Shown: positions 16,245 through 51,979 of the stretch, one piece after another
How the letters are laid out: each line of letters starts with the position of its first letter
How positions within the stretch are numbered: position 1 is the stretch's first letter
IMG/VR virus record: IMGVR_UViG_3300027788_000006
Span: 23,533 to 87,532 of that record
Strand: one strand, 5' to 3'
Source of the DNA: a virus
Length of the DNA: 64,000 bases
The notes under the pieces: generated by a model
Databases searched by the model: none
What the model was told of the DNA's origin: nothing
Seen by the model: the letters and a program-made list of their open reading frames with translations, nothing else
Made by a program: the position numbers and the translations under genes

Positions 16245-19200
16245 TTAAAGAGATTGAGGAGTTAGACAACAAAATGGATCTGACAGACACGCTGCTTGTG
16301 ATGTATTAGGTCCCTCAACTGCAACCTCTGAGCAGTTACAGCTACCTGTACAACAAGCGATTATATTAATTGTATCAGAATTTTCACTAGGAGATCCAAG
16401 AGCTCCTGAAATAATATTTGCAGTAGACGGAGTATTTGAAACTGTACTACTTTCTATACTTACATTATAACCAGTTGCTGGATGACATCCATCAGAATTT
16501 GCAGGTAATATAAGACTTCCTGTTGGAACTCCAGCTAAGATAGCAGCATCTATATAAGTTTTCCAAGTATTAAAGAATTGTCCTGGCATTCCTACATGTG
16601 TAATACTAGTTATCTTCTTTTTAACAAAGCCATTTAAACAACATCCAGCAGGATAAGCCCCACAAGGTTGTGCAGATTGGTAGTAATAATCATTGAAATT
16701 TGCAGTGATACCGTGTATAAGTACTAAAGCAGTTAATGCCATATCCTGATTAGGGAATGTAGTCCAAGGATCTAACTCAGTTGAGTCATAAGTATTTGTA
16801 GACAATAGAATACCTTCAGATATAAGTAACGTTACTGCGGTTCCAGTACAACTGTTTGTAGACGTATTTGCTTGTGGGATACAATCCCAATACTCTGCAT
16901 CACAATAAATACAAGAGCCATCATCGATAGTTGCTCCTGAACTATAATTTGAAGCTCCTGGATCAGTACAACCTTCTATGGCATATAGACAACTTCCATC
17001 ATCACATGTTGCGGCAATATTATAATTTGAAGCTAGTGGATCTATACAGCCGTATATACAATATATACATGACCCATCATCTAACACAGCTAGGGGATCA
17101 TAATTTTGAGCAGTAACATCTGTACATCCACATAGAGGCATAGTTGTTATAATAATAGGAGACATAACTACAGTTCCTGCAGTACCACAAGATGGAGTAG
17201 TTGTTTCCGTATATGTGAATCTCCATTGACTGTTAGTAGTAACTAACTGTGTATGAAGAAGTGTGTTAAAACCGTTAGAGGTACCTGTTATAGAAGCTAC
17301 TATAGTAGTCCAAGTTGCTCCATTGTCTAAAGATTGCTCTAAATATCCAGTGATAGACTGTCCAGGATTACATGTCATATTCCATACAATACTAGAAGGT
17401 ACTCCACATAGACTAGAAACAACTGTTGTAGCAGTTACCGCGCAAGCACAGAACCCAGGAACTATACATAAAGTAGGATCACTTATTACATATTGTGCTG
17501 GTATAAGTGTAGTATTAAATGCAGCAGGGTCATCACAAGCAGGAGTTTGTATATCAAAAGTGAATGTGTTATCACATACTTGAGCAACACTCCAAACTGG
17601 AAGAGAAATAGTACTTATAACTATAGAATAACTTCCATAAGAAAGACCTACAGCAGAAAAGATTACTCCCGGCGCAGAAGAAGACGGACCACTCATTACT
17701 ATATTACCCGTTGAATCAAATATAGTTATATATAATACCGCAGGTAATTGTACGTTAGGATTTATTCCCATAGTTAAAATAGCTGATCCTGTAAATGATC
17801 CTGTTGGATCTTCTATAGTAGTAGCTAATGAAGCTTGGAACCAATTCGTGGCAGTGTTTACTGAAGCAGCATCTATAACAAAAGCTTGCCCTGTACCCGA
17901 TAAAGCTGGTCCCATCGCTGTAGTAAACCCACTACAGTATAAACAACTACCATCATCATTATTAGCGGTAGGATCATAATTTAAAGCTGTGGCAGATGTA
18001 CACCCATTTAGAGGTGTTATACATCCTGCAGGACATGTTGCTAAAGGATCAAAATTTGTTGATCCAGCTCCAGACGCTGCGGTACCAGTTTGAGTTAAAC
18101 ATGTTATAGCACCAGGGTTTGCTACAGAGTCAGTTTCCCATATAGTACCACAATCCATACATCCACTTACGCACAAATCAACACAACAATCATTATCTAA
18201 TAATGGGTCTAGAGGTCCTGTATTTCCTTGAGCCGGATCACTACTATTGCAATCACATGTAGCTAAAGAATTATATTGAACAAATGCAGGGTTAGTACAT
18301 CCATAAACACAATAATTACAACTACCATCATCTACACTTGCATAAGTAACATAATTATTTGCAGCTGGATCAGTACATCCTTCATATATACAGGAACCGT
18401 CATCTGACGTTGCAGTAGGATTAGGATTAATTGGTAATATCCCTGGGTATGTAACTGTAGTAAGTATTGTAGCATAATCGTTTGGAGATTGAGAATTTAT
18501 ACCATTATAAGGTTCTAGACCATCCCAATAGTTTTGTGTTAATGCTCCAGTATCCATACATCCTGTTAAAGTATATTGACAACATCCATCACTTATAGTT
18601 GCTAAAACTGGTAACGTAGCACAGTTCTCATTATAATTATCTGCTGACGGATCTGTACAACCAGGTACTAATAGACAAGAAGTACAATCTAATTCAAGAG
18701 GTATAGTTGGAGAAGCATCTATTAACTCACTGGTAGCATTTCCTGCAGGTGCTACATTATAACCATTAAACTTAAAGCAATCTCCATTACTTAATTTTAT
18801 TACTGTTGCTCCTATAATAGGACCCCAAGTTAAATTTGCAGCAGGATAACCAGGCATTTGTATGGCCCCACTCTGATTAGTTCCTACCCAAGTTATAGTA
18901 TTTGCTGAAGTAACAGCTACTCCTACATCTACTATATTATATAAATCTGTGGTACCACATTTTTCCCATTCCATATACAAAGGAGGAGCAGAAGCACAAA
19001 GCGTACAGTCTGCATATACATCTGCAGGTCCTACTAAAGTATGATTATTACCTAACTCATATTCTCCTAACATAGTAGTATAACCATGATGAGTTGCAGC
19101 ATTATAAGGCGAGGGTCCCATATATTCAATACAGTATGATCCAACACCACTTGTATGTCTTATATTAAGGACATCTCCAATAACTATAGGAGCTCCATTT

Positions 19201-22200
19201 TGAGCTACTACGTAATTATAGAATATTCCATTATTTAAAGCAGTATTTGCTAACGGGTATACAGAAGTAGGATCTCCTATCATATTAACAATATCCTCTG
19301 CACAATCTGCCCACACTATAGCGGGAACCCAAGAAGAAGGGCACACACACATTTTCCATTCATGAAAAACAGCTGAGCAATCTATACAATTAAAATAAAA
19401 CGGTAGTAGTAAGAAATTAGCGGAAGAGTAATTTATAATAGTTCCAAGAGTATTAGTTACAGATATTCCTACATACTCATAACAATCATTAAGATATTGA
19501 ATGGTATTACCTGGTGAAGGACTACCTACAGCTATATAATAATCATTACTCTCACTACCTGCTCCAGTAGCTCCCATTTCAACGAATGTATATTCTACTA
19601 AAGTGTTACAATCTCTCCATGTATGTATAGGGTTACCCGGAGTACAAGGTCCCGGACATACAGCACATTGATCAACATTTGAATTAAGGTATCCACCTAT
19701 CGTTGGATATGACATAATATTTCCTGCTGTTGGTATTGTTGTTGATGTAGTACAATCATATACTGCACTAGCATCATAACCATTTACGTCTGGGTATAAA
19801 CCTGGAGTTAGATCAGTACATCCAAGAGGCCCTGTAGGAGTATATGTATATTGTAGTTCAATTGTACAAGTAGAACCTGCATATGTTATAACTGCTTCTG
19901 CTTTATATATCTCTGAGCCTGGTGTAGTATGTAAATTAGCAAATGGTAATATTTCATTAATAGATGTGTTTGCGCTTACTACAGTTGCAGTAGTTAATAA
20001 AACCCAAGCAGTACCTGCAGTATCCCACATATACCAGTTGATAACATGACTTACTGTTATTGGACTACAAGTTGCTGTAAACAATAAATCTGGGGTACAA
20101 GTATTAACTGTAGTAGACGAAGGATCTAAACCTATAGTATCTGGAGTACAACATGAAGATGATATACAAGTTCCGTCATCACAAATAGCTAAAGGATCAT
20201 AATTTGTTGCTGTAGGGTCAGTACAACCACAAGGGTTAAAAGTTAAAGTATCTGTAGCGGATATTAATTGACATGTTGCTCCTCCTACATAAGTTATATC
20301 AAACACTACTCTATAATCTCCAGTACCATATGTACCAAAAGTATTTGTAGTACAACTGTAATTATATGTATTTGATACTCCTGCTGTAGCATTTGCTGCG
20401 GCAGTAGTAGTCTCTGTAAGTACATCTGAAATTTGCCATGTTGTTCCATCCCAGAATTGTAAAGTAGATACTATTGTTTCCGCATACTCGGATACTGCAC
20501 AAGTTAATGTAGAAAGGTATTCTAAAGTACATCCTCCTGGATTATTATTAGCCGTAGCTGTAAATGTAGGAAGACTACAACAAGGATAAGTACATGACCC
20601 ATCGTCACATGTTGCAGCTGCATTATAGTTAGTTGCATTTGCATCAGTACAACCACATATATAAGTTGGCGTCGTAATTACACTCGTTGTACAAGTATCA
20701 GTTGTTCCATTAGTAAACGTAACAGTTACCGTTGCATCATACGTGGTATTCATTGCATAGGCAACAACAGGGGTTCCACATGCGTCAACACCATTTGATG
20801 TAGCTGCTAATGAAGTCATTGAGGAACTACCTGACGCCATTGTGGTATTTGTTGTAGCATCTTCAATAACCCATGCCCAACTAGCTACAATGTTAGAACT
20901 GCTGTCTGAAGCTGTTAATACAAGATCGTCTATACATCCTGCAGACGTTATATTAAGTGCTAAAGCACATGTTATAGCACCTGAATAAATACACGTATCT
21001 GGGCACGTAGCTGTAGCATCATAATTAATGGCAGCAGCATCCATACATCCACATATTCGTCTAACATATGTTACTGTATTTGATTGTATAGTTTCTGTAT
21101 GACCATTTGCATATGTTATAACATATTGAATGGCATAATCTCCGTTAAGAGGGAAGAAGAATGTGCTACAATCTTCTATAAAAGTTAATCCATATGTATC
21201 AGTACCAGTTGATGATAAAGGTAATGGTAAAGCAATTAAAGTAGCAGCTCCTGCAGGGTCTGATATTATTTGGAAAGTAGCTGATGCTGTATCCGCTAAA
21301 GCAGATGCATTAGTATCAGATGTACTTAAAATAATTGTATTATTACAACCCGTTACTGTTTGACTTATAAGAGCTGTAGTTACTGGGTATACACAGCAAT
21401 CATTTGCAGACCCTGAATTACAAGTACATATATTTGTAACATCATAATTAAATGCGTAAGTACTATTGTCTGTACAACCTGTAACACAACAGGCAGTAAT
21501 AGTTGATGTAGCTGTACCAGTACATCCAGAAGCATCTATAACTACACAATTATAATCTCCAGGAACTAGTCCAGTAAGATTTTGATTCGTAGTTTGTGCT
21601 CCAGGAACGACACCACCACTAGCAGCAGTCCAAGCATAAGTATATGGAGGGGTTCCAGGAGCTACAGTTTGAGTAATAGTTCCATTATCTATAGGTAAAT
21701 TATTAGCACAAGTATTAGTTTGCCCTAGAGTTACACTAGTTGGAGGAGCTGGGAATGTTAGTGTATCTGTATACACACATCCAGTTATATTTTCTGTCCA
21801 AGTACATGTAACAGACCCTCCCCCTGTAGGTATTATTATACTTCCAAGATTAGATGAAACTGCCCCATTTAAACTTCCTGTCCAAGCATAAACACCTAGA
21901 CAACCTCCACAGTTTAATACTGTAGCAATTAATATAGTCCCTAAGCCACAAGCCGAAGCAACAGCTGCTACTGTCAGAGTTGCACTACAGAAATCGCAAC
22001 AAATATCACATGTGGGAACTACTGTTAATCCTGTTGCACAATCCTCATTAAAGTTATCTGCTGTTGCGTCCATGCAACCACAAACCATATTAGCATTCAA
22101 AGGTACGGTCATAGGAGGACCATAAACAGTACCAGTAACTCCATTTGGAAGTGTGTAGTTAAGAGCAGATGTATAAACTTGACCAGGTATAAGATTCCAA

Positions 22201-25200
22201 GCTGCATAATTAGTTATCGAATCATTAAATCCGCCACCACATGCTACAGCGAAATTAGTATTGTAAACATTGGGATTTGTTATACCAATACCAGTAGTGA
22301 AATTACCAGCTACAGGAGTACCTCCAGAGTCTATAAAATAAAAATCGTCCGGACCTACAGCATCTCCCCCACTTGTAAGTATATTCATGTCAACTAAACA
22401 TGGGACATCAGTTGCTATAGTAGAAATTATTGTAGGAAGTATGTAAGGAGTACAGTCAATTATTATTCCTGTGTATGTTACAATACACCCAGTAGAATCT
22501 GTTATAACACATGTATAAGTACCTGTAACAGTTAAATTAGAAATATTTTGTGTAGTCGCCCCATTACTCCATAAAAAACTATAAGGAGCTGTTCCCATGG
22601 CTACTGTTAAAAGTATCTCACCGTCTTGCGCTATAGAAGTATCCAGACAAGTTATAACATCATTAACCGTTGTAAAACAATAATCACAACAATCATCACA
22701 TGTAGGAACTACTGTATTTCCTAAACAATCTTCATTAGTATTAGAGGCTGTAACATCCATACATCCATGAACATTATTATCTGCAATAGTAAATGGTACG
22801 GTGCAAACACCAGATAAACCATCACCATAAACCCCCACAGTATGAGCACCAACCTGCGTTAGGGTTGAGTAAGTATGAGGCCACGTTATTGGGGCACCCA
22901 ATATATGCCCAAATTGTCCTCCAGTAGGAGCAGTAAGATAGAAAGTATAATTAGGGCCAGAAACAAATCCTGGAGTTATAAGATCTACTGTAACTGATCC
23001 AACACCAGTACAATCTATATCAGTAGATACAACGTCTAGATACCAGCATGTTCCATCATCACAAGCAGCCATCGCATTATAATTACACGCTGTTGGATCA
23101 GTACAGCCTGATAGCTGAGGATCATTATATATAGTGAAACCCCGAGAAAAAGTACACCCATTACTCATAACACAGATAGCGGTATAACCACCTGCAGCAA
23201 GATTAGTATCCGCTAAAAGAGTAGAACTATAACTATTAGGTCCTGTAACAACTGTTGATAGTATTGTTATTGCTGGTATAGTAGTTCCCGGATATAGTTG
23301 GTATGATCCTCCTGTAGGAGGTGGTGAAGCTGGAGGACAGTACATTATATCTCCTGTAACAACATGAACCAGAAGAGATACTATTTGAGGAGAATATACA
23401 GGTTGATAAACCCCTACTGTTTCTGTACATCCAAAAGAATCTGTAATATGACAAACGAATTGACATGTACCATTATAATCAAATGGAGTATTTCCTACCC
23501 ATTTATTTAAATCAGAGGAAGTAAAAGTAGCGTTTGTAGTTTGATATGGCCAAGGAATTGGTATACCAGGATTAGTCAAGTCTTCCCAAACAAAAGTAAA
23601 TGGAGGAGTTCCTCCAGCAACAGTTACAGTAGCCCCCGATGAATTACATACTTCAGGTGTTAGTGTTGCATTCCATGTACAAGGATCTGGATAAGTACAA
23701 GTGTTCAGACTACAAGTACAAGTAGCACAGTAATTAGTTCCTAAAGGATCCGTACATCCACATTCAGGAAAGTCTATATATATACCATCACCTTCTGCAG
23801 TACAAATTAAACCATTTGAATCAGTTGTTACAATAACAACTCTATAAGTTCCATCTAAACCTCCATTTTGGAAATCATCTACAGGAGTAAGTGGAGTGTT
23901 ACAAGCATATTGCCAATGTATATAACTATTAATACTAGGTGAGGCAACTACAACTGAATTTGTGGTTACCCAAGCAGATCCATTCCAAAATTGTACATGA
24001 TGTACTTGAGCTATTAATGTTACAGTTGGAGACCATCCACAAGATAAATATGATCCATAATAAACTAGACAAGGGGTTATAAGCGAATTCGTAGTAAAAT
24101 GTGCATCAGGGGTAGTACAACAGCTTGGCCCTGGAGGGTATAAACATGAACCATCATCAGTTGTACAAGTAGGACAATAGTTAGCCGGTTGCGCCCCAGG
24201 ATAATTTGCTATACCTGTTATAACATCATAAGCTATTCCAGTTGTATTAGAGGCAGGATCAGTCCACCAAGTTTGACCTTGATTTACAAATGTACCATCA
24301 TCTGTACATCCAGTATTACCATACACACAACAACAGTCACAAGTAGCTGCAGCATTATAATTAGTAGCTATAGGATCAGTACACCCACAATTTACAGGCG
24401 CATTATTTGTAGAACTTATAAGAGCAGGTGCTCCAGCGTTATGACCAAAAGGTCCCGTAGTAGTTACAGTAGTTGTATTAATATAATGGATCTGCATATA
24501 TAATACAGGAGTAGTAGGTAAGAAGGGCGTTATAGCAGCTGTAAATCCTTGTCCAGCACAATCATCTGTTCCTAAATCCTGGACAAATGAATTTCCTAAC
24601 TGTGCCTGGAAAATCGTCATTATTAATGTGTCTCCCCCTGGAGTATTATCCATATCCAACCATATCTCTACACGATCAACTTGAGCACATGGAATACCAG
24701 CCCCCCAATTTGCTACTAATGATACTTCACAAGTAGTATCTACAAATGTAAGAGTTGGATCTGGTTGGGTAACGTAAGTACAACTACCATCATCACAAGT
24801 AGCCAAAGCATCATAGTTACAAGCTAAAGGATCTATACACCCATTTACAAAACCATCAGAAACAATGGCAGGGATAGGGCTATTAACACAACTATTTACA
24901 TCCGTAATTATTAATGAATATGTACCTGCTATAAGTCCTGTTAAATTTTGATTAGTGCTTTGTCCCGCTGGAACTACGCCTCCACTTGAAGCAGACCAAG
25001 AGAAAGTATAAGGAGCAACACCTCCCGCAGGAGTAGGAGTTATAGATCCATTGGCAACTAAACAGTCTGTATTATCAACAACCAACGTCGGGATCATAGT
25101 AACTATAGATGGCTCTGTTATAGTCCAACTTGTAGTTAATAAACAGTTATTATTATCGAGTATATCAAGGGTATATGTTCCTGGTGATAATCCAGTTATT

Positions 25201-28157
25201 CCTGTAGATGATGTAGAACCAGTACTCCATAAATATGAGTATGGTACACTACCTCCTGTAACAGAGTTTATTGTAATAATACCATTATTCTCTCCATTAC
25301 ATCTTACATCAGAAGCTGTTGCAGATAAAACAGTGCTACAATAATAACAACTTCCATCATCACACAAAGCACTTGCGTTATAGTTTACAGCTAAAGGGTC
25401 TGTACAACCATCAGGTAAGATACAAGAACCATCATCACAGTTAGCAGTAGCATCATAATTACATGCCATAGGATCAGTACATCCATATATACCGTTGTCT
25501 AGTAAGATTTTGGTTTCTAAATACCCTACACATCCATTAGAATCTGTAGCTTGGCAGGTATAAGTACCTGGAACCAAACCAGATATCATATTAGTAGTAG
25601 CTCCAGTACTCCATAGCCAAGTATATATACCTGTTCCTCCACCCATAAGAGCTTGTATGCTACCATTATTATAACATGTAACATGTGTAGCTTGTAAAAA
25701 TGTAGAGATATTTGCTATCCCAGGAACTACTATAGCTAGGTATTCTTGACAGCCAGTGATTGTATCTGTTACTACAACCGAAGGAGTTGACGCAGGGAAT
25801 CCAGTTGCTGCTGGAATAGTTTGTCCATTAGACCATAAATAAGTATAAGTACCACTACCTCCTGCTGCAGTTACGGTTGCTGTTCCATTAGAATCGCTAT
25901 GGCATATAATAGCTGTGGATGTTGCAGTAAGAGTTAATATTGGGTATAGAGGTTGGTCAAAGCTTATTCCGAATTTATTTGCATAAAAACACCCATCTTC
26001 ATCTATCATGTATATTGAATAACTACCCTGATCTGGAGGCAGTCCAGGAGTTCCTGTATAATTTACAGTAGTATTATCCTGTGTGGTAGGAGATGAACTA
26101 TTTATTAAAGTTAGTTCTACAGCAGACATAGTCGTATTTGCAATATACGACGTATTTTCATCTATAATAATCTGACCGTTTGTATCAGGAGTAAAAATTC
26201 CATATGCAACAGTATCATTATTAGTACTAGATGTATGTGTAACACCAGCATTTATTGTACTCGCAGAATTAGGTACTATAAAAACTTGAATAGGACCAGT
26301 AGAATTAATAGCAGCTGATAGATCTATAATAAGCTCACCGTAAGTACAACTATGATCATTTACAATTGTTGTAACGGTGCTTTGGTTAGATATATGGAAA
26401 TCACCACAGTCACAATCTAAACAGTTAACAGTTTGATCTGGGTATAGAACAGCTGACATAGAATTAGTTGGTCCTATCAAGTCCAGCGTCATTATTAATG
26501 ATAAGGGAAAGGGAAGGCCTGGGGAAAAAGATACAGCAGTCCCATCACATTGCTCATCTGTATACTGCCAATAATTTATATTACTGGAATCGTTACAAAC
26601 CTCTATAGGTCCTGGACACTGATGTATATGTTCAGAGTAATGATGAACATGAGTAAATGGTACATAAGCACCCTTATCTGCATGTATTCCACTCTGATTT
26701 TTTATAAGTCCATATACTGTATTAAAGTCCGATTGAGCACCTATAGCAGTAGATGCAGAATCAGCAGGAGCAGCGCCTACAAAAGTATTCTCATAAAAAA
26801 TATTAAGACACTCATAATGTTGAGACCCAGTAGATCCAGGTATTTTTGATGGCAATGTAGATGGTATTCCAGCAGCTGTTTTCAATGCGTTTCTATCAGC
26901 ATTCAGATAACTAATATCAGGCTTAGTAACAGCACGGCTAATAACTCCACTAATCGGACGTTGCTGAGAAGTAGGTTGTGTGTATATCCTCTCTATATTA
27001 GTATTTGCACTAGAAGCTCCAAGTGTATTATCTAACTCAATAATCATGATTGGCCAATTATCATCTAGAGTAGTAGGAGTGAAATCAGGAGTGAAATACT
27101 TAGCAGTACCACCTGAATTACCTACCGTTGATATATCGTGAGTAATAGTATGGTTCGAATAATTTGAAAATAAATGCATCTTAAGAGTTGCACCAGCAGG
27201 AAAATTACCATAGTTAGTATTGAGAAACATCTGTATCCGTTCGATTCCATCTCTACATAATCTCTGAAGGTAAGGAGCAAACTGACTGTTACCCAGTGGC
27301 ATTCCAAATCTTTGCATAACTCCTGTTCTTTCACCAGGACCAGCATTTAACTCTAAATAGTCGGAACCGGATGGAAACAGTTGAGCAGAAGTAGGTAAGC
27401 CAGCAGATGATGCATTACTAGTATATTTAATCCAATTTGCATTTGCTATAGTTACATTTGGATGCGCTGTGTGTATATCTGCAAGTATATCATTTGGAGT
27501 TGCTCCAATAGCATTAGTAACATTTAGTACACTAGCTGCACCGGAAATAGAGCTCCAATCAGTTCCATCAGTAATGTGTTTAGAATAATGAGATTTAGCA
27601 ATGTGTACATGCTTACCTGTTATATTAGGATCAACTATATAACTTATAGTAGAGATAGGTCGTTCTCCTCCGTATGGGTCAGTACCAGCAGGAAAAGCAT
27701 CACAGTCATTAGCCTTTACTATTGCCACAGTTCCAATATCTCCTGCATAAGAAGTTACGCTGTAGTAAGCTTCAGGTAGAACTACAGTAAAATCTTTTGA
27801 GGAACCATCAGACCATTCAACACGAACTAGTCTTACAGGATTGGAACCTGTTGACGTAGGTAAAAAACTAGCAGAGTTACCTGTAACACCATATCTTAAA
27901 ATGATACCTGGTGGATTGGATGGTTGACCAACTGAACCTGTAGACGCAATCACTGGCACTACAGAATCTCCTGTAATATCAGTGAAACTTGCTACAGTTA
28001 GATGTGTCTGACCACAGAAACTAGCACCACCTGCTAAATTACCATATACAACTGAGCTGCATATTATAGTTTGAAGTGAAGTAACTATTGTTGGTTGACA
28101 AAGTGTATCAGTAGGACCTCCACTGATAACAACATTTTTTAATTCTGCTACAGCCAT
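16245..28157 (-). CDS. Giant SprB-repeat/Cys-repeat tail adhesin (3970 aa)
   Basis: An uninterrupted 3970-residue protein, about 19% of the window. Residues 1 to about 700 are non-repetitive and probably anchor it to the virion. From about 740 to 2215 it carries several SprB-type repeats (pattern Cys...G-x-G-x-Y-x-Y-x-W-S-x-G-x-x...G-x-Y-x-x-x-x-x-D-x-x-G-C). From about 890 to 3750 it carries at least twenty degenerate units of the form GCTDPxAxNY...CDDGSC-x-Y. Both repeat kinds are established features of Bacteroidota cell-surface adhesins, SprB being the gliding adhesin of Flavobacterium. There is no signal peptide, as expected for a virion protein. Likely function: long tail fibre or receptor-binding protein stiffened by disulfides or calcium. 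Confidence 0.85.
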   Translation of the reverse strand: MAVAELKNVVISGGPTDTLCQPTIVTSLQTIICSSVVYGNLAGGASFCGQTHLTVASFTDITGDSVVPVIASTGSVGQPSNPPGIILRYGVTGNSASFLPTSTGSNPVRLVRVEWSDGSSKDFTVVLPEAYYSVTSYAGDIGTVAIVKANDCDAFPAGTDPYGGERPISTISYIVDPNITGKHVHIAKSHYSKHITDGTDWSSISGAASVLNVTNAIGATPNDILADIHTAHPNVTIANANWIKYTSNASSAGLPTSAQLFPSGSDYLELNAGPGERTGVMQRFGMPLGNSQFAPYLQRLCRDGIERIQMFLNTNYGNFPAGATLKMHLFSNYSNHTITHDISTVGNSGGTAKYFTPDFTPTTLDDNWPIMIIELDNTLGASSANTNIERIYTQPTSQQRPISGVISRAVTKPDISYLNADRNALKTAAGIPSTLPSKIPGSTGSQHYECLNIFYENTFVGAAPADSASTAIGAQSDFNTVYGLIKNQSGIHADKGAYVPFTHVHHYSEHIHQCPGPIEVCNDSSNINYWQYTDEQCDGTAVSFSPGLPFPLSLIMTLDLIGPTNSMSAVLYPDQTVNCLDCDCGDFHISNQSTVTTIVNDHSCTYGELIIDLSAAINSTGPIQVFIVPNSASTINAGVTHTSSTNNDTVAYGIFTPDTNGQIIIDENTSYIANTTMSAVELTLINSSSPTTQDNTTVNYTGTPGLPPDQGSYSIYMIDEDGCFYANKFGISFDQPLYPILTLTATSTAIICHSDSNGTATVTAAGGSGTYTYLWSNGQTIPAATGFPASTPSVVVTDTITGCQEYLAIVVPGIANISTFLQATHVTCYNNGSIQALMGGGTGIYTWLWSTGATTNMISGLVPGTYTCQATDSNGCVGYLETKILLDNGIYGCTDPMACNYDATANCDDGSCILPDGCTDPLAVNYNASALCDDGSCYYCSTVLSATASDVRCNGENNGIITINSVTGGSVPYSYLWSTGSTSSTGITGLSPGTYTLDILDNNNCLLTTSWTITEPSIVTMIPTLVVDNTDCLVANGSITPTPAGGVAPYTFSWSASSGGVVPAGQSTNQNLTGLIAGTYSLIITDVNSCVNSPIPAIVSDGFVNGCIDPLACNYDALATCDDGSCTYVTQPDPTLTFVDTTCEVSLVANWGAGIPCAQVDRVEIWLDMDNTPGGDTLIMTIFQAQLGNSFVQDLGTDDCAGQGFTAAITPFLPTTPVLYMQIHYINTTTVTTTGPFGHNAGAPALISSTNNAPVNCGCTDPIATNYNAAATCDCCCVYGNTGCTDDGTFVNQGQTWWTDPASNTTGIAYDVITGIANYPGAQPANYCPTCTTDDGSCLYPPGPSCCTTPDAHFTTNSLITPCLVYYGSYLSCGWSPTVTLIAQVHHVQFWNGSAWVTTNSVVVASPSINSYIHWQYACNTPLTPVDDFQNGGLDGTYRVVIVTTDSNGLICTAEGDGIYIDFPECGCTDPLGTNYCATCTCSLNTCTYPDPCTWNATLTPEVCNSSGATVTVAGGTPPFTFVWEDLTNPGIPIPWPYQTTNATFTSSDLNKWVGNTPFDYNGTCQFVCHITDSFGCTETVGVYQPVYSPQIVSLLVHVVTGDIMYCPPASPPPTGGSYQLYPGTTIPAITILSTVVTGPNSYSSTLLADTNLAAGGYTAICVMSNGCTFSRGFTIYNDPQLSGCTDPTACNYNAMAACDDGTCWYLDVVSTDIDCTGVGSVTVDLITPGFVSGPNYTFYLTAPTGGQFGHILGAPITWPHTYSTLTQVGAHTVGVYGDGLSGVCTVPFTIADNNVHGCMDVTASNTNEDCLGNTVVPTCDDCCDYCFTTVNDVITCLDTSIAQDGEILLTVAMGTAPYSFLWSNGATTQNISNLTVTGTYTCVITDSTGCIVTYTGIIIDCTPYILPTIISTIATDVPCLVDMNILTSGGDAVGPDDFYFIDSGGTPVAGNFTTGIGITNPNVYNTNFAVACGGGFNDSITNYAAWNLIPGQVYTSALNYTLPNGVTGTVYGPPMTVPLNANMVCGCMDATADNFNEDCATGLTVVPTCDICCDFCSATLTVAAVASACGLGTILIATVLNCGGCLGVYAWTGSLNGAVSSNLGSIIIPTGGGSVTCTWTENITGCVYTDTLTFPAPPTSVTLGQTNTCANNLPIDNGTITQTVAPGTPPYTYAWTAASGGVVPGAQTTNQNLTGLVPGDYNCVVIDASGCTGTATSTITACCVTGCTDNSTYAFNYDVTNICTCNSGSANDCCVYPVTTALISQTVTGCNNTIILSTSDTNASALADTASATFQIISDPAGAATLIALPLPLSSTGTDTYGLTFIEDCSTFFFPLNGDYAIQYVITYANGHTETIQSNTVTYVRRICGCMDAAAINYDATATCPDTCIYSGAITCALALNITSAGCIDDLVLTASDSSSNIVASWAWVIEDATTNTTMASGSSSMTSLAATSNGVDACGTPVVAYAMNTTYDATVTVTFTNGTTDTCTTSVITTPTYICGCTDANATNYNAAATCDDGSCTYPCCSLPTFTATANNNPGGCTLEYLSTLTCAVSEYAETIVSTLQFWDGTTWQISDVLTETTTAAANATAGVSNTYNYSCTTNTFGTYGTGDYRVVFDITYVGGATCQLISATDTLTFNPCGCTDPTATNYDPLAICDDGTCISSSCCTPDTIGLDPSSTTVNTCTPDLLFTATCSPITVSHVINWYMWDTAGTAWVLLTTATVVSANTSINEILPFANLHTTPGSEIYKAEAVITYAGSTCTIELQYTYTPTGPLGCTDLTPGLYPDVNGYDASAVYDCTTSTTIPTAGNIMSYPTIGGYLNSNVDQCAVCPGPCTPGNPIHTWRDCNTLVEYTFVEMGATGAGSESNDYYIAVGSPSPGNTIQYLNDCYEYVGISVTNTLGTIINYSSANFLLLPFYFNCIDCSAVFHEWKMCVCPSSWVPAIVWADCAEDIVNMIGDPTSVYPLANTALNNGIFYNYVVAQNGAPIVIGDVLNIRHTSGVGSYCIEYMGPSPYNAATHHGYTTMLGEYELGNNHTLVGPADVYADCTLCASAPPLYMEWEKCGTTDLYNIVDVGVAVTSANTITWVGTNQSGAIQMPGYPAANLTWGPIIGATVIKLSNGDCFKFNGYNVAPAGNATSELIDASPTIPLELDCTSCLLVPGCTDPSADNYNENCATLPVLATISDGCCQYTLTGCMDTGALTQNYWDGLEPYNGINSQSPNDYATILTTVTYPGILPINPNPTATSDDGSCIYEGCTDPAANNYVTYASVDDGSCNYCVYGCTNPAFVQYNSLATCDCNSSDPAQGNTGPLDPLLDNDCCVDLCVSGCMDCGTIWETDSVANPGAITCLTQTGTAASGAGSTNFDPLATCPAGCITPLNGCTSATALNYDPTANNDDGSCLYCSGFTTAMGPALSGTGQAFVIDAASVNTATNWFQASLATTIEDPTGSFTGSAILTMGINPNVQLPAVLYITIFDSTGNIVMSGPSSSAPGVIFSAVGLSYGSYSIVISTISLPVWSVAQVCDNTFTFDIQTPACDDPAAFNTTLIPAQYVISDPTLCIVPGFCACAVTATTVVSSLCGVPSSIVWNMTCNPGQSITGYLEQSLDNGATWTTIVASITGTSNGFNTLLHTQLVTTNSQWRFTYTETTTPSCGTAGTVVMSPIIITTMPLCGCTDVTAQNYDPLAVLDDGSCIYCIYGCIDPLASNYNIAATCDDGSCLYAIEGCTDPGASNYSSGATIDDGSCIYCDAEYWDCIPQANTSTNSCTGTAVTLLISEGILLSTNTYDSTELDPWTTFPNQDMALTALVLIHGITANFNDYYYQSAQPCGAYPAGCCLNGFVKKKITSITHVGMPGQFFNTWKTYIDAAILAGVPTGSLILPANSDGCHPATGYNVSIESSTVSNTPSTANIISGALGSPSENSDTINIIACCTGSCNCSEVAVEGPNTSQAACLSDPFCCLTPQSL

Positions 28158-45189: not shown

Positions 45190-45430
45190 AGTTCACCCCC
45201 TTGTGGCGTTCGTTTCAAGTGTGAATTTCCTTCTGACAGTGCTCCTCTTTTCAGGGGGGACCCATGGATAGTGATCTTGATGTTAATTCACCGCACGTAC
45301 CTGTGTGCATTCTATCCAAATCAGAGTTTATATCTTACTCTTTTCCAATTACCGGAGAAAATCTCGTTCTTATTTAGAACTACCAATCCGATGTCTAGTC
45401 CCATTTTTGGTTACCAAGGGACGATAATAT
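45190..45430. ncRNA. Structured leader or noncoding RNA in the divergent region
   Basis: About 240 nt with many local helices: C-run 45196-45200 with G-run 45254-45259; TGGATAG/CTATCCA (45265-45271 with 45312-45318) enclosing GCAC/GTGC; TTTTCC/GGAGAAAA (45341-45361); GTTCT/AGAAC (45366-45380, perfect); and GTCCC..TTGG/CCAA..GGGAC (45398-45422). A minus-strand TATCTTTGC box (45445-45437) would start a transcript just before the last hairpin, making this a structured 5' leader of the minus arm. A fitting -33 box is lacking, so the strand remains open. No good ORF explains it. Confidence 0.5.
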
Positions 45431-45436
45431 TGGACT

Positions 45437-45445
45437 GCAAAGATA
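45437..45445 (-). promoter_or_regulatory. Possible -7 box for the minus-arm leader
   Basis: The minus strand reads TATCTTTGC, which fits the Bacteroidota -7 element TAnnTTTG. A TTG occurs only 11 nt upstream, too close for a -33 element, so this is a half-site at best. Position ahead of the structured leader makes it the natural candidate for start of minus-arm transcription. Confidence 0.35.
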
Positions 45446-45496
45446 TAAAAAATACCCAATAAAAAAATAAAAGACGGAAAAAATTTAAGGGATTGT

Positions 45497-45554
45497 TATC
45501 GAACGTGTGAACCTCCTCAAAACAAGACCCCCATTGTTCTCTAGCGTTCGGATA
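45497..45554 (+). other. Hairpin in the leader of the first plus-arm gene
   Basis: TATC-GAACG (45497-45505) pairs with CGTTC-G-GATA (45545-45554) as a 9-bp stem with one bulged G. It encloses a second perfect hairpin AACAA/TTGTT (45521-45525 with 45534-45538). It lies 35 nt before the ATG of the 49-aa gene and could regulate it or terminate leftward noise. It also contains copies of ACCCCC and GCGTTCG found at 45195-45212. Confidence 0.5.
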
Positions 45555-45589
45555 CCCCGACCGTTAATCAAACTAAAATTAGAGTAATT

Positions 45590-45739
45590 ATGGAAAAGAT
45601 ATTTGAGGTAGTAGTGTATAAAGAGTGGATCAAGATCGTTATCACTTCACTTGATGGTCAAGATGTCGTTGACATCAGTAGTGAGTGGTTTCCAATCGAT
45701 GGTCCTACGGCCATACGCTTGTTAAAAGGGGATAAATAA
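45590..45739 (+). CDS. First plus-arm gene, 49-aa small protein
   Basis: A 49-residue protein (MEKIFEVVVYKEWIKIVITS...) from ATG 45590 to TAA 45739. It is predicted to be beta-rich, with a central SSEWFPIDGPT segment. It stands alone between a structured leader and a perfect terminator, so it is probably transcribed early and separately, as many phage host-takeover peptides are. Its start follows an AT-rich 'aactaaaattagagtaatt' leader without Shine-Dalgarno, as for the other genes. Function unknown. Confidence 0.65.
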   Translation: MEKIFEVVVYKEWIKIVITSLDGQDVVDISSEWFPIDGPTAIRLLKGDK

Positions 45740-45754
45740 TCCCCTTTTTGTTTT
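45724..45754 (+). terminator. Rho-independent terminator of the 49-aa gene
   Basis: A perfect 10-bp stem AAAAGGGGAT (45724-45733) / ATCCCCTTTT (45739-45748) with a 5-nt loop, followed by further T residues (TGTTTT). The stop codon lies in the loop and stem. It ends transcription of the 49-aa gene and separates it from the structured RNA region downstream. Confidence 0.85.
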
Positions 45755-46352
45755 CCTCTTGATGTGTTTGTGTTTACATCAACCAAGCCTTACACGCACT
45801 ATAACACACCATTTGACAATCAACTAGAATAATAACATAAGATAATATAACACTACTCTCTTTAAATGTAGAGGTAATTCCATCTTGAATGGTAATACAT
45901 GAATTGGACGACAATCCATTAAACTGTAGTTGTTATTTAACTAAAGTAGCTCAAACTTTGTGTGTAATTCATCTAATTGAATACATAGACCAAGTAGTTA
46001 CTTAACAACAAACTCTATTGATAAATGATTACTGATTAAGCTTTATGCTAAAGGTAACGGTAGAGTATGTTGTTTACAATATTGATAGTAGGTCACCTAG
46101 TATAGCTACGGGTGCTTAAAAGGAAGTGTAGTAAGATTAATTATCTTGCTCGGCAGACGTGTCTCCTACTTCAACAACATATCAAGGATAGCTGAATAGA
46201 AACGTAATCTCATTCAGACAGGTGGGGAATATCACAAGTTAGAATATACAGCGCGAAGGTGTGTTAGTAACTTGGATTATTTACAATGATCACCCACCTG
46301 GACCTTGAATATAAATTAATAACAACACCTAACATAAATAACATTAAAAGAC
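45755..46352 (+). ncRNA. Candidate large structured noncoding RNA (about 560-600 nt)
   Basis: No convincing ORF in about 600 nt, but a dense series of stems: TTGATGT/ACATCAA (45759-45782, perfect); TAGTT/AACTA and AAAGT/ACTTT near 45927-45958; a 14-bp stem with one mismatch (46004-46017 with 46061-46074); a three-way junction (46123-46172) holding AAGAT/ATCTT and AGAC/GTCT hairpins; and a terminal domain with ATTCA/TGAAT (46212-46216, 46306-46310), perfect CAGGTGGG/CCCACCTG (46219-46226, 46293-46300) and CAAGTTA/TAACTTG (46235-46241, 46268-46274) nested. ATGTTGTT (46067-46074) can instead pair with 46173-46180. Plus strand is assumed from neighbours. Large phage RNAs GOLLD and ROOL are comparators, not identifications. 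Confidence 0.55.
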
Positions 46353-46523
46353 ATGAAAAACAAACCACAAGAGTTCAAGATTACATTAGAAGATGTACTT
46401 GATATAATGATGGAACACGGAATAGTAGCAGGCTTACAACTAGAAAGAATAAGAGTTAAAGCAGTAGTAAGAGTTGCTGAACAAACAGCTTATGATAGAG
46501 GTTGGATAGATAGTAGATTCTAA
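46353..46523 (+). CDS. Small helical protein, 56 aa
   Basis: ATG 46353 to TAA 46523 encodes 56 residues, beginning MKNKPQEFKITLEDVLDIMM and ending WIDSRF. The composition is that of a real, mostly helical protein with a basic middle (LERIRVKAVVRVAEQ). It follows an 'aacattaaaagac' A-rich leader like other genes. The next gene starts 2 nt after its stop. It lies between two structured RNA regions. The family is unknown. Confidence 0.62.
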   Translation: MKNKPQEFKITLEDVLDIMMEHGIVAGLQLERIRVKAVVRVAEQTAYDRGWIDSRF

Positions 46524-46525
46524 TC

Positions 46526-46726
46526 ATGATATATGATGAAGATGATAACATAATATCAGTTGATATGTATGTTAACCAAAGAAACTTTAACGATGTAGAT
46601 TCAACAGATGATGTTGAATGTTACATTACACGCTATGATCAACCAAAAATTGATTATTATACAGAGAGTTCATACACTAAGAATGACGATGATAATTCGT
46701 ACTTAGTATTTGATATAAAGAATTAG
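46526..46726 (+). CDS. Small acidic protein, 66 aa
   Basis: A 66-residue acidic protein (MIYDEDDNIISVDMYVNQRN...) rich in Asp, Asn and Tyr, ending SYLVFDIKN. It starts 2 nt after the preceding 56-aa gene, which supports a two-gene unit. Acidic proteins of this kind in early phage regions can be DNA mimics or inhibitors of host proteins, but nothing in the sequence proves it. The family is unknown. Confidence 0.58.
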   Translation: MIYDEDDNIISVDMYVNQRNFNDVDSTDDVECYITRYDQPKIDYYTESSYTKNDDDNSYLVFDIKN

Positions 46727-47248
46727 AAAGGACGTAATTTCGTCGTATTCCTAAGCAGGAAGACAAACTGCTTTTATATAACAAACGGAGATTTGCAAGT
46801 CTCCTTAGAGTAAGAACTGTCGCTAATACTTGTGCTAACAAGGGTAGACAGTAATATGTAGTCATCCAGACGAATATATGTGAACTAATGTTCATGTATC
46901 ACTAACTTAACAGTTGGACATATTAAGAGGACAAAAACTAACTAAAACAATAATCTATTGTTAGTATGACATTAAACTATCTATGAGGTCACGCCTTTGA
47001 CTGATGATAGTATGCTGTAGCTTATAGTGAGCTATTCAATGTAATTATAACATCCGAGTGGACTAGTAATTATAAGAGTATATCGGGAGATGTATAGTAG
47101 ATGTCGAGATAACTGGTGTAAAAACCAATGGTTGTACCTCTGGGACTGATAATCCCCTTACTTGTGTTTAATGCAGCAATACTGGTCACAAGCCCAGTTG
47201 AGAAATGCAGAGTGAACACAAACAATTTATTAATTAAAAATTAGACAA
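46727..47248 (+). ncRNA. Second candidate structured noncoding RNA region
   Basis: About 520 nt without a credible gene and with at least nine local helices. Examples: AAGCAG/CTGCTT (46753-46773); GGAGA/TCTCC (46787-46804); ACTGTC/GACAGT (46816-46852) enclosing CTTGT/ACAAG; a 10-bp helix with two G-U pairs (46876-46885 with 46890-46899); ACTAA-CAATA/TATTG-TTAGT (46941-46965); TAGCT/AGCTA (47018-47034); GGGA/TCCC (47142-47156); ACTGG/CCAGT (47181-47198). TTGTGTT (47162-47168) can pair with AACACAA (47215-47221), or overlapping CTTGTG (47161-47166) with CACAAG (47187-47192), exclusively. It may be one RNA or several processed elements. Confidence 0.5.
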
Positions 47249-47548
47249 ATGTCAGAATTTACAGAAATGAACAGCAGGATATTAGCAAAGAACTTGGAAA
47301 TAACTAAGTTAACAAAACATTTAGATGATGTATCTGCTCAATTAATAGATGCTCAAGACAAACTAGATAATCTTCATCCAGTTTGGATGATAGATGTAAT
47401 TTTAGAAATAACGACAGCAATAGATAATACTGGAGATATGATCTGGAATGAAGAACAAAGATATGAACTACTCCAAAAGATAACCAAAATAGGACAACAT
47501 TTATCATCTAACAATAGTATTCAAAGTCATAGACGTATTAAAAGATGA
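47249..47548 (+). CDS. Coiled-coil protein, 99 aa
   Basis: A 99-residue protein. Residues 1-45 form a clear heptad-patterned helix (ILAKNLEITKLTKHLDDVSAQLIDAQDKLDNL), the remainder is helical with a basic end (SIQSHRRIKR). It overlaps the following lipoprotein gene by 4 nt (ATGA), so the two are translationally coupled and may act together. It follows a structured RNA region, and its leader is 'attaattaaaaattagacaa'. No known domain recognised. Confidence 0.65.
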   Translation: MSEFTEMNSRILAKNLEITKLTKHLDDVSAQLIDAQDKLDNLHPVWMIDVILEITTAIDNTGDMIWNEEQRYELLQKITKIGQHLSSNNSIQSHRRIKR

Positions 47549-47757
47549 CAAATAAACGAGGAAATTCAGTAGGTATAGCTGTTTGGATACTTATAGTTAT
47601 ATTTATAACTATAATGCTGAGCTCATGTAGTAGTATGAGGTTAACAAGTGCAGAACAACTGCACAGAGCTGAAATTGATAAACAATTAAATACTCTATGG
47701 ACTGAGTATAGCTTCAAAGTTGATTCACTATCTATTGAGTACTATAATACAAAATAA
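47545..47757 (+). CDS. Small putative lipoprotein
   Basis: A 70-residue protein with a typical lipoprotein signal: basic start MTNKRGN, hydrophobic core VGIAVWILIVIFITIML and lipobox LSSC (Cys at about residue 28). The mature part is about 42 residues and helical (EQLHRAEIDKQLNTLWTEYSFKVDSLS). It is encoded in the early/middle arm, away from the lysis genes. Phage lipoproteins in such positions often block superinfection by binding the receptor, as T5 Llp does; an outer spanin subunit is the alternative. Superinfection exclusion is inference. Confidence 0.65.
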   Translation: MTNKRGNSVGIAVWILIVIFITIMLSSCSSMRLTSAEQLHRAEIDKQLNTLWTEYSFKVDSLSIEYYNTK

Positions 47758-47880
47758 TCCCACGATATAAGACGGAAAGGCTTGAGCCTGATGACTAATA
47801 CTCGACGCATTCAGGAGGATTATAAGTGTAAAACATGGATTACGACAATAATAAATGTAATAACACTTAAAATATATAAA

Positions 47881-48078: not shown

Positions 48079-48133
48079 ACAAGGTTGATGATATACCTTT
48101 ATTAAATCATCAAAAAAACAATTAAACAACATT

Positions 48134-48730
48134 ATGGGACAAAACACAATTAACAGTGGATCTATTGATACACTAAAGAAAGGAGACACTTTACTAGTAA
48201 ATGCTAGAAAAGTAAACAATGACAAATTACACTTAGAATTTGCAGAAATTATCAACGCTACTACTAAGCCAATGAGTGCTTTAGGGTTACTTAATAAATC
48301 AGATGAAAGATTTAGTTCAAGTGCTAGAAGATGTTGGCTAACTGCTGAACCTGCTGATGCAACTGATGTATTTGGTATAGAATTTGACGCTACTGCTGGA
48401 TGGGAAATGACTCCAAAAGGAGAAGTATTAGAATTAAATATACTAAATCCAGATCATTTAGGAGAAAGATTCAGAGTTATAGTACAAGAAACTACAGAGC
48501 CAACTAAATGGCAAGCTGATAATTTAAGTAAGGCTGCTAAGAGAAAAGGTAAAGACGGTGGTTTCATAACTAATAATGGAGATTATATCTTCAGTAATAC
48601 TGATGTAATTCAAACTAATGGAGATACTAATGAACTTCACACATGGTTACAGCCTGACTCTCAAGTAATAGAAGCAGAAAATGCTCAAGCACTTGAAGTA
48701 GAAGAGTTTGATACAAGTACAATGCTATAA
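48134..48730 (+). CDS. Probable abundant early protein, ssDNA/nucleic acid-binding candidate
   Basis: A 198-residue protein. Residues 1-45 are beta-rich (DTLLVNARKVNNDKLHLEFAE), followed by the motif RFSSSARRCWLTAEPADATD and a C-terminal acidic tail (EAENAQALEVEEFDTSTML). An OB-fold-like body with an acidic tail would suit a nucleic acid-binding protein, and I recall similar 'ARR.W.T.EP.D' proteins in crAss-like phages without known function. Two hairpins follow the gene, implying a separate, abundant transcript. The function is unproven. Confidence 0.62.
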   Translation: MGQNTINSGSIDTLKKGDTLLVNARKVNNDKLHLEFAEIINATTKPMSALGLLNKSDERFSSSARRCWLTAEPADATDVFGIEFDATAGWEMTPKGEVLELNILNPDHLGERFRVIVQETTEPTKWQADNLSKAAKRKGKDGGFITNNGDYIFSNTDVIQTNGDTNELHTWLQPDSQVIEAENAQALEVEEFDTSTML

Positions 48731-51687: not shown

Positions 51688-51698
51688 GTATTACGAAG

Positions 51699-51748
51699 GG
51701 GTGAGCACCTAGGCAATAATGCCATTAACGGTTAATACACGCTCACCC
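51699..51748 (+). ncRNA. Compact three-way-junction RNA element
   Basis: A perfect 8-bp outer stem GGGTGAGC/GCTCACCC (51699-51706 with 51741-51748) encloses two perfect hairpins: GGCA-ATAA-TGCC (51712-51723) and ATTAA-CGG-TTAAT (51724-51736). The layout is a small three-way junction 11 nt after the polymerase stop codon. It lacks a T-run, so it is not a classical terminator. It may be a stable mRNA end, a small regulatory RNA or a processed element. Confidence 0.6.
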
Positions 51749-51845
51749 TGGAGTAAAAATGAGCCAAATAGAAATGCTAATCGGATCACATGCAAATACA
51801 TATAATGGAGGTCAAATCAACTACTAAAGAATGTAAATGCATATA

Positions 51846-51881
51846 ATATGTCCAGTTTTTTAACGAATAAACTGGACATAT
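51846..51881. repeat. 13-bp perfect inverted repeat
   Basis: Arms ATATGTCCAGTTT (51846-51858) and its exact complement (51869-51881) with a 10-nt loop. The loop begins with T residues. It could be a bidirectional terminator or a protein-binding palindrome. It abuts a second inverted repeat. Confidence 0.8.
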
Positions 51882-51901
51882 GTGTACCAAATTGGTACAC
51901 A
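51881..51901. repeat. 21-bp near-perfect palindrome
   Basis: TGTGTACCAA (51881-51890), a single central A, then the exact complement TTGGTACACA (51892-51901). Such a compact palindrome is a typical operator for a dimeric DNA-binding protein or a replication initiator site. It is directly adjacent to the 13-bp inverted repeat and precedes the direct repeats. Confidence 0.75.
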
Positions 51902-51908
51902 ACAGAAG

Positions 51909-51957
51909 TGTAACTTATATGAAACAAAACAAGGTAAAATGTAACTTAGATGAAACA
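51909..51957 (+). repeat. Pair of 18-bp direct repeats
   Basis: TGTAACTTATATGAAACA at 51909-51926 and TGTAACTTAGATGAAACA at 51940-51957 differ at one base, with 31 nt from start to start, about three helical turns. They lie directly before the 121-aa gene (ATG 51980). Together with the adjacent palindromes they are candidates for iterons of an origin or for operator sites. Confidence 0.75.
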
Positions 51958-51979
51958 TTAACAAACTAAAACAATAGAT

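Follow-up and report, generated by a model that had tools for sequence, protein, structure and literature searches.

A predicted new RNA family within an exchangeable set of structured RNA modules of a crAss-like phage

A structured, gene-free region next to a divergence point

The DNA analysed here, the window, measures 64 kb and belongs to a virus record of 87.5 kb in IMG/VR. Its terminase matched PHROG 6681 (E 1e-132) and is ~42% identical to those of gut crAss-like phages; phages of Bacteroides, Flavobacterium and Cellulophaga matched as well, and judged by sequence the source phage is crAss-like. It is probably marine, going by the phage group and the company of the contig; the collections state no habitat. 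Structural genes extend leftward and replication genes, e.g. DNA polymerase A, rightward, and the region 45740-46352 is located immediately right of the divergence point, within a series of tiny genes. The structural block also encodes a predicted protein of 3970 aa (16245-28157, minus strand) with many Cys-rich repeats (GCTDP..NYN..A..DDGSC). Related IMG/VR contigs (L-numbers) were retrieved via neighbouring proteins and DNA patterns, and the gaps between their genes were then compared.

The region lies between a 49-aa gene (ending at 45739) and a 56-aa gene (starting at 46353), and no convincing ORF was found in it. It had been predicted to be gene-free and highly structured and, indeed, its plus strand folded with -142.3 kcal/mol compared to -119.8 kcal/mol for dinucleotide-shuffled sequences (z -3.7; 0 of 100 shuffles as low). 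The minus strand gave a z of -1.2, and a separate run for the region with 20 shuffles a z of -4.5. The folding excess was local, residing in the segments M2 (z -4.3), M9 (z -3.9) and M3 (z -5.4) described below, and was weak or missing in M1 (z -1.3), at 46080-46182 (z -1.5) and at 45752-45840 (z +0.1). A terminator scan revealed an intrinsic terminator-like hairpin at 45724-45748 (plus strand; folding peak on both strands) which closes the 49-aa gene and separates it from the structured RNA, predicted at the outset to be expressed after this gene; a hairpin followed by T residues after the first gene is also present in L002, L003 and L004. Taken as the usual kind of intrinsic terminator, this hairpin belongs to the 49-aa gene, and the RNA proper extends from ~45838 to 46312. 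A Bacteroidota-type promoter pattern did not match upstream of the region on the plus strand, and blastn of 45740-46352 against 50,697 phage records gave no match.

The original prediction named GOLLD, ROOL and HEARO as candidates. None of the three Rfam 15 covariance models matched in 45740-46352, and these identities had to be given up. With the GOLLD model (RF02032; match above 150 bits), the window gave nothing at the gathering threshold, and searches admitting matches up to E 10 gave none either, whether in 45190-47250 or across all 87.5 kb of the record. The comparison with GOLLD was a good lead all the same, as five relatives, all crAss-like phage contigs, carry a genuine GOLLD in the neighbouring gap (L002:3490-3857, L018:2973-3342, L030:2736-3134, L033:9677-10063 and L035:3960-4359; 212-226 bits, E 4e-58 to 9e-63). 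GOLLD and ROOL form cages, are located in prophages and are of unknown function (PMC12286853). The region resembles GOLLD as a large structured phage RNA but differs from it in its helices and in having separable modules. A search of all Rfam models, at gathering and at E <= 10, returned only chance-level matches to sraA, tracrRNA, DapZ and AniS; by this measure 45740-46352 belongs to no Rfam 15 family. ARAGORN detected neither tRNA nor tmRNA, and a literature search, which was not complete, gave no description of these motifs in crAss-like phages.

Modules of the region and the predicted family M2

The expectation of a large phage RNA or a new class stood in so far as a structured plus-strand RNA absent from Rfam 15 is predicted here, but a mosaic of separately occurring modules is favoured by the comparisons over one large conserved RNA. 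In order, the mosaic consists of M1 (45838-45945), M9 (45943-46004), M2 (45999-46080), a window-specific piece (46080-46182) and M3 (46180-46312), all on the plus strand. M1, M2 and M3 occur together, in the order of the window, only in L018.

M2 is the best supported of them. Its helices are P1 (46010-46020/46058-46068, continued to 46004/46074), P2 (46029-46033/46053-46057) and P3 (46039-46041/46047-46049). P1 is the 14-bp stem with one mismatch (46004-46074) seen at the outset, which covariation marks as real, and the second partner suspected for 46067-46074 is present as well (AACAACAT at 46173). The search pattern TTGANAAATG-N14-TTTANNNTNA-N6-CGGTA matched 11 IMG/VR contigs and gave 0 matches in 84,980 prokaryote genomes; although the flanks had been left free in the pattern, a pairing P1 stem flanks every match. 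The covariation check on homologues that had been suggested was clearly positive: among the 12 sequences, of which L034 and L036 are near-identical and whose loop bases were fixed by the search pattern itself, 12 of 23 counted pairs had changes on both sides. Of all cells, 95.3% were paired, compared to 80.0% in shuffles and 34-44% when the pairing was slid. Double-change cells numbered 46, compared to 15.4 in shuffles, a control that ignores the tree; 0 of 500 shuffles were as high and slid versions reached at most 13. P2 covaries at four of its five pairs and has a U-G pair in 7/12 sequences. The terminal pairs of P1 (U-G, U-G, G-C) are invariant, with the U-G pairs in all 12, and since the opposite strand would have A-C mismatches in their place, the strand is fixed; it is the gene strand in 12/12. 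P1 is followed by an 8-nt 5' bulge, AUAAAUGN. The UUUA of the apical loop can pair with UAAA of this bulge in 11/12 sequences, which makes a loop-bulge pseudoknot (46022-46025/46042-46045) likely, if unproved by covariation. With covariation exceeding both column composition and slid pairings, M2 is, on sequence evidence, a new compact RNA family.

With a covariance model of M2, every positive record yielded a single strong copy, and no further strong one turned up in 14 records. M2 starts 12-24 nt past a stop codon in L003, L009 and L014 and ends 33-49 nt ahead of an ATG in L002, L003 and L014. It occurs by itself in L002, L003, L014 and L035; in L009 it precedes the module M6, and in L035 a terminator-like hairpin and GOLLD.

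M1 is a closed multi-branch RNA with an ACUAC/GUAGU base and the conserved stretches CUCUCUUUAAAUGUAGAGGUAA and CAUUAAACUGUAG. Copies were found in L038/L039 (98% identical over 98 nt), in L038 without M2, and, diverged, at L018:1176-1263; beyond these, a loose pattern met only two unrelated coding matches. One hairpin of the copy in L018 (GUGGGUUUGAUCCCCA) is T-arm-like, but a tRNA-like reading was rejected since the arms do not fit and ARAGORN found no tRNA. M9 is a 62-nt hairpin whose copy in L038 (11462-11520) is identical at 59/59 nt and is placed within the loop of another module, M10. The following piece, 46080-46182, may form a three-way junction; the one proposed for 46123-46172 is a plausible fold, and blastn gave no match to the piece among the relatives.

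M3, a three-way junction kept in L018, L022 and L027, is closed by CAAGG/CCUUG in the window and by CAAAG/CUUUG in the relatives, and comprises the hairpin CUGAAU-AGAAACGUAAUCUC-AUUCAG and a long arm, CAGGUGGG/CCCACCUG, plus an extension specific to the window. The helices read earlier as CAGGTGGG (46219)/CCCACCTG (46293) and CAAGTTA (46235)/TAACTTG (46268) are present. For ATTCA (46212)/TGAAT (46306), complementary strands do exist, but the pairing is doubtful since ATTCAG (46212-46217) instead forms, with CTGAAT (46192-46197), the conserved hairpin kept in 4/4 full M3 copies. M3 occurs by itself in L022 and L027. A scan with the short AGAAACGTAATCTCA gave 42 stretches, mostly coding and due to chance; true M3 was restricted to L018/L026, L022, L027 and L061. 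In L061 (minus strand, ~1206-1290 of the reverse complement), unrelated sequence replaces the 5' part within the hairpin, a junction that is possibly a recombination breakpoint inside an RNA module. The M3 loop GUAAUCUCA (46204-46212, plus strand) is a 9-mer equal to the conserved loop of the 3' terminal hairpin of GOLLD; this may be chance.

Neighbouring RNAs and exchange of modules

Further structured elements surround the region, all on the plus strand. RNA C (45218-45434) is intergenic at the divergence of the gene blocks and was found in nearly all retrieved relatives that span this point; 22 of its 56 pairs had double changes (11.8 in shuffles), 96.1% were paired (n = 11 sequences), the wobble pattern favours the plus strand, and Rfam contains no match. 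Downstream follow M4 (46744-46775), present also in L002, L003, L008, L011, L023 and L061, and, directly adjoining, RNA B (46776-47248), a second large structured gene-free RNA whose gap is occupied by GOLLD in L002. In L023 (4917-5330), ~400 gene-free nt hold an M4 copy and three 3' halves resembling those of tRNAs, with T-arm, acceptor strand and ACCA or a comparable end, from which ARAGORN predicted no tRNA. RNA B had double changes in 29 of the 122 pairs of its alignment A2 (7.9 in shuffles), with 97.8% paired. Its 3' end, 47165-47218, matched twister-P1 (RF03160) with 44.6 bits (E 4e-8; 68/68 positions aligned; curated cut-off 67.2 bits), and the twister-P1-like stems covary (helices 21 and 22 of the alignment). 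Twister-P1 matches were also obtained in L003, L004, L012, L017 and L019. The segment 47165-47218 is a putative diverged twister-P1 ribozyme and presumably self-cleaving. It lies ~1.1 kb downstream of M2, and both are compact, stem-closed motifs between cistrons. The conserved twister-P1 core is, however, absent from M1, M2 and M3; tests of M2 and M3 for the twister core and topology were negative and only 47165-47218 matched twister. Also unlike twister-P1, the putative M2 pseudoknot joins an apical loop to a 5' bulge of other sequence.

M10 (47757-47825; window, L002, L003, L009 and L038) is a junction RNA absent from Rfam, with a core of AAGACGGAA, CCUGAUGA and UCGACGC and a covarying P1 (AUAAUCC/GGAUUAU in one form, CAAACC/GGUUUG in another). 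A hammerhead reading of its CUGAUGA was rejected, as GAAAC and the cleavage triplet are absent. At 48081-48111, an H-type pseudoknot (AAGGU/ACCUU with GAUGAU/AUCAUC) is shared with 15 relatives, one pair covarying as A-U, G-C and U-A. It is located ~20-25 nt upstream of the start of a 198-aa gene and resembles a translational operator, e.g. that of T4 gene 32. The 198-aa gene, at 48134, was considered as SSB-like, which was rejected since neither Pfam nor PHROGs gave a match.

The same genes are preceded by different modules in different phages. Gene family F26 follows M2 in L014 and M4 in L011; F7 follows M0 in L022 and M6 in L038; F4 follows RNA B with twister-P1 in the window, L003, L008, L012 and L017, GOLLD in L002 and M10 in L038. 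RNA B itself is preceded by M4 in the window, by M5 in L017 and by an unrelated stem-closed element in L003. Module copies can be far more alike than the proteins of their phages: L018 and L022 share M3 at 98.7% identity (polymerases 74%), and L018 and L027 share it at ~96% over 90 nt, with the terminase of L027 only 25% identical to that of the window; between window and L038, M1 is 98%, the Cpn10-like proteins 53% and the terminases 76% identical. As the M2 stems drift freely, constraint alone need not explain this near-identity. These comparisons, which span few contigs, show what appear to be horizontally exchanged modules, interchangeable in gene gaps. Similar A-rich leaders ahead of each small gene could supply the homology for such exchange. 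Small structured RNAs moving as phage cassettes are thereby suggested, crossing lineages with barely similar proteins, in which unlisted families, GOLLD and a known ribozyme replace one another. The gap replacements offer a natural series for asking what GOLLD does. Beyond the original prediction, at least one new RNA family is thus placed, by comparison of sequences, among exchangeable phage RNA modules. A short stretch from an uncultured, probably common marine phage lineage would hold several unlisted RNA families, one of them with decisive covariation.

Possible function of the modules

The alignments show structure at the level of the plus-strand RNA and modules that appear autonomous, each having a P1-type stem or a hairpin of its own as closure. 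We propose that an early polycistronic transcript carries the string of modules in its untranslated spacer, as tandem autonomous elements acting in cis, most likely in cleavage or insulation (probability roughly 0.42). This reading is suggested because M2 covaries and stands alone between genes, modules swap before the same gene and one occupant of the gaps is a ribozyme. The modules could cut themselves, as presumed for the twister-P1 of RNA B, although the catalytic step is what we infer rather than observe; alternatively, a factor acting in trans would cut or bind them. Processing would separate the small genes from the non-coding RNAs, and the downstream mRNA would then begin with a stable fold ~30-50 nt before the start codon. 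Twister cleavage yields a 5'-OH on the downstream RNA. A twister-P1 cut would leave a 5'-OH mRNA with a fold at its front, and M2 and others may be alternatives to it. As a counterpoint, M2 is single-copy in every record and a general processing signal might repeat; a single copy per genome fits repeat avoidance and equally fits individual small RNA genes. The twister-P1 scores of window and relatives, too, are under the Rfam cut-off.

A bolder version, which we rate as rather unlikely, is that M2, M10 and some of M1, M3 and M4-M6 are new classes of self-cleaving ribozymes, never one twice per genome, which cut the early polycistronic RNA and release GOLLD-type and other RNAs. Ribozyme neighbourhoods of this kind have yielded new natural ribozymes and classes of functional RNA. 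RAGATH RNAs are likewise structured RNAs from the gene neighbourhoods of ribozymes, and some were proved to be ribozymes. None of the RAGATH models of Rfam matched this part of the window, even with E values of up to 10 allowed; the one match, RAGATH-7 in L011 only, was sub-threshold (17.7 bits, E 0.46). Three other RAGATH members are ribozymes, and RAGATH-18, found near ribozymes, is the scaffold of a TnpB guide RNA (PMC11061315), which makes a ribozyme neighbourhood weak evidence for catalysis.

One large ornate non-coding RNA of a new GOLLD/ROOL-like class (~450-600 nt, variable periphery), with M1, M2 and M3 as its domains, is doubtful to a similar degree. The region-wide z of -3.7 is in line with it, as is the order M1-M2-M3 in L018, which is what one RNA would give and speaks against separable modules. 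Moreover, M2 of L033 lies, at the same place, within a structured gap of comparable length, and GOLLD likewise joins a conserved 3' part to a variable 5' part (PMC12286853). However, all copies lack a common core, each module occurs without the others, covariation backs no long-range pair between modules, and 46080-46182 has no homologue and the region no Rfam match.

Also unlikely is that each module is a small RNA gene acting in trans, e.g. as a decoy or in anti-defence, brought together in an early, hypervariable region through recombination at similar A-rich leaders. One copy per genome, near-identical horizontal exchange, early location and mosaic content would all fit, but neither an own promoter nor an own terminator was detected around the modules, no defence target can be named, and M2 adjoins the preceding stop codon and the downstream leader in a cis-like manner. 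A cis-regulatory leader of the next small gene, riboswitch-like or a protein-bound operator, is more improbable still: the distance of M2 to the ATG in three phages and the H-type pseudoknot ahead of the 198-aa gene would suit it, but unrelated genes or another RNA follow M2, leaving no constant target, and the M2 fold leaves the ribosome-binding region free. Least probable by far is a DNA-level element devoid of RNA function, such as a cruciform or recombination site: inverted repeats can act as DNA and the modules are exchanged among genomes, but U-G pairs are invariant, M2 keeps to the gene strand and folding is biased to one strand.

A further gene-free stretch of 292 nt (51688-51979, plus strand), 3' of the polymerase gene, folded with a z of -5.8, and short conserved blocks were found there in relatives.
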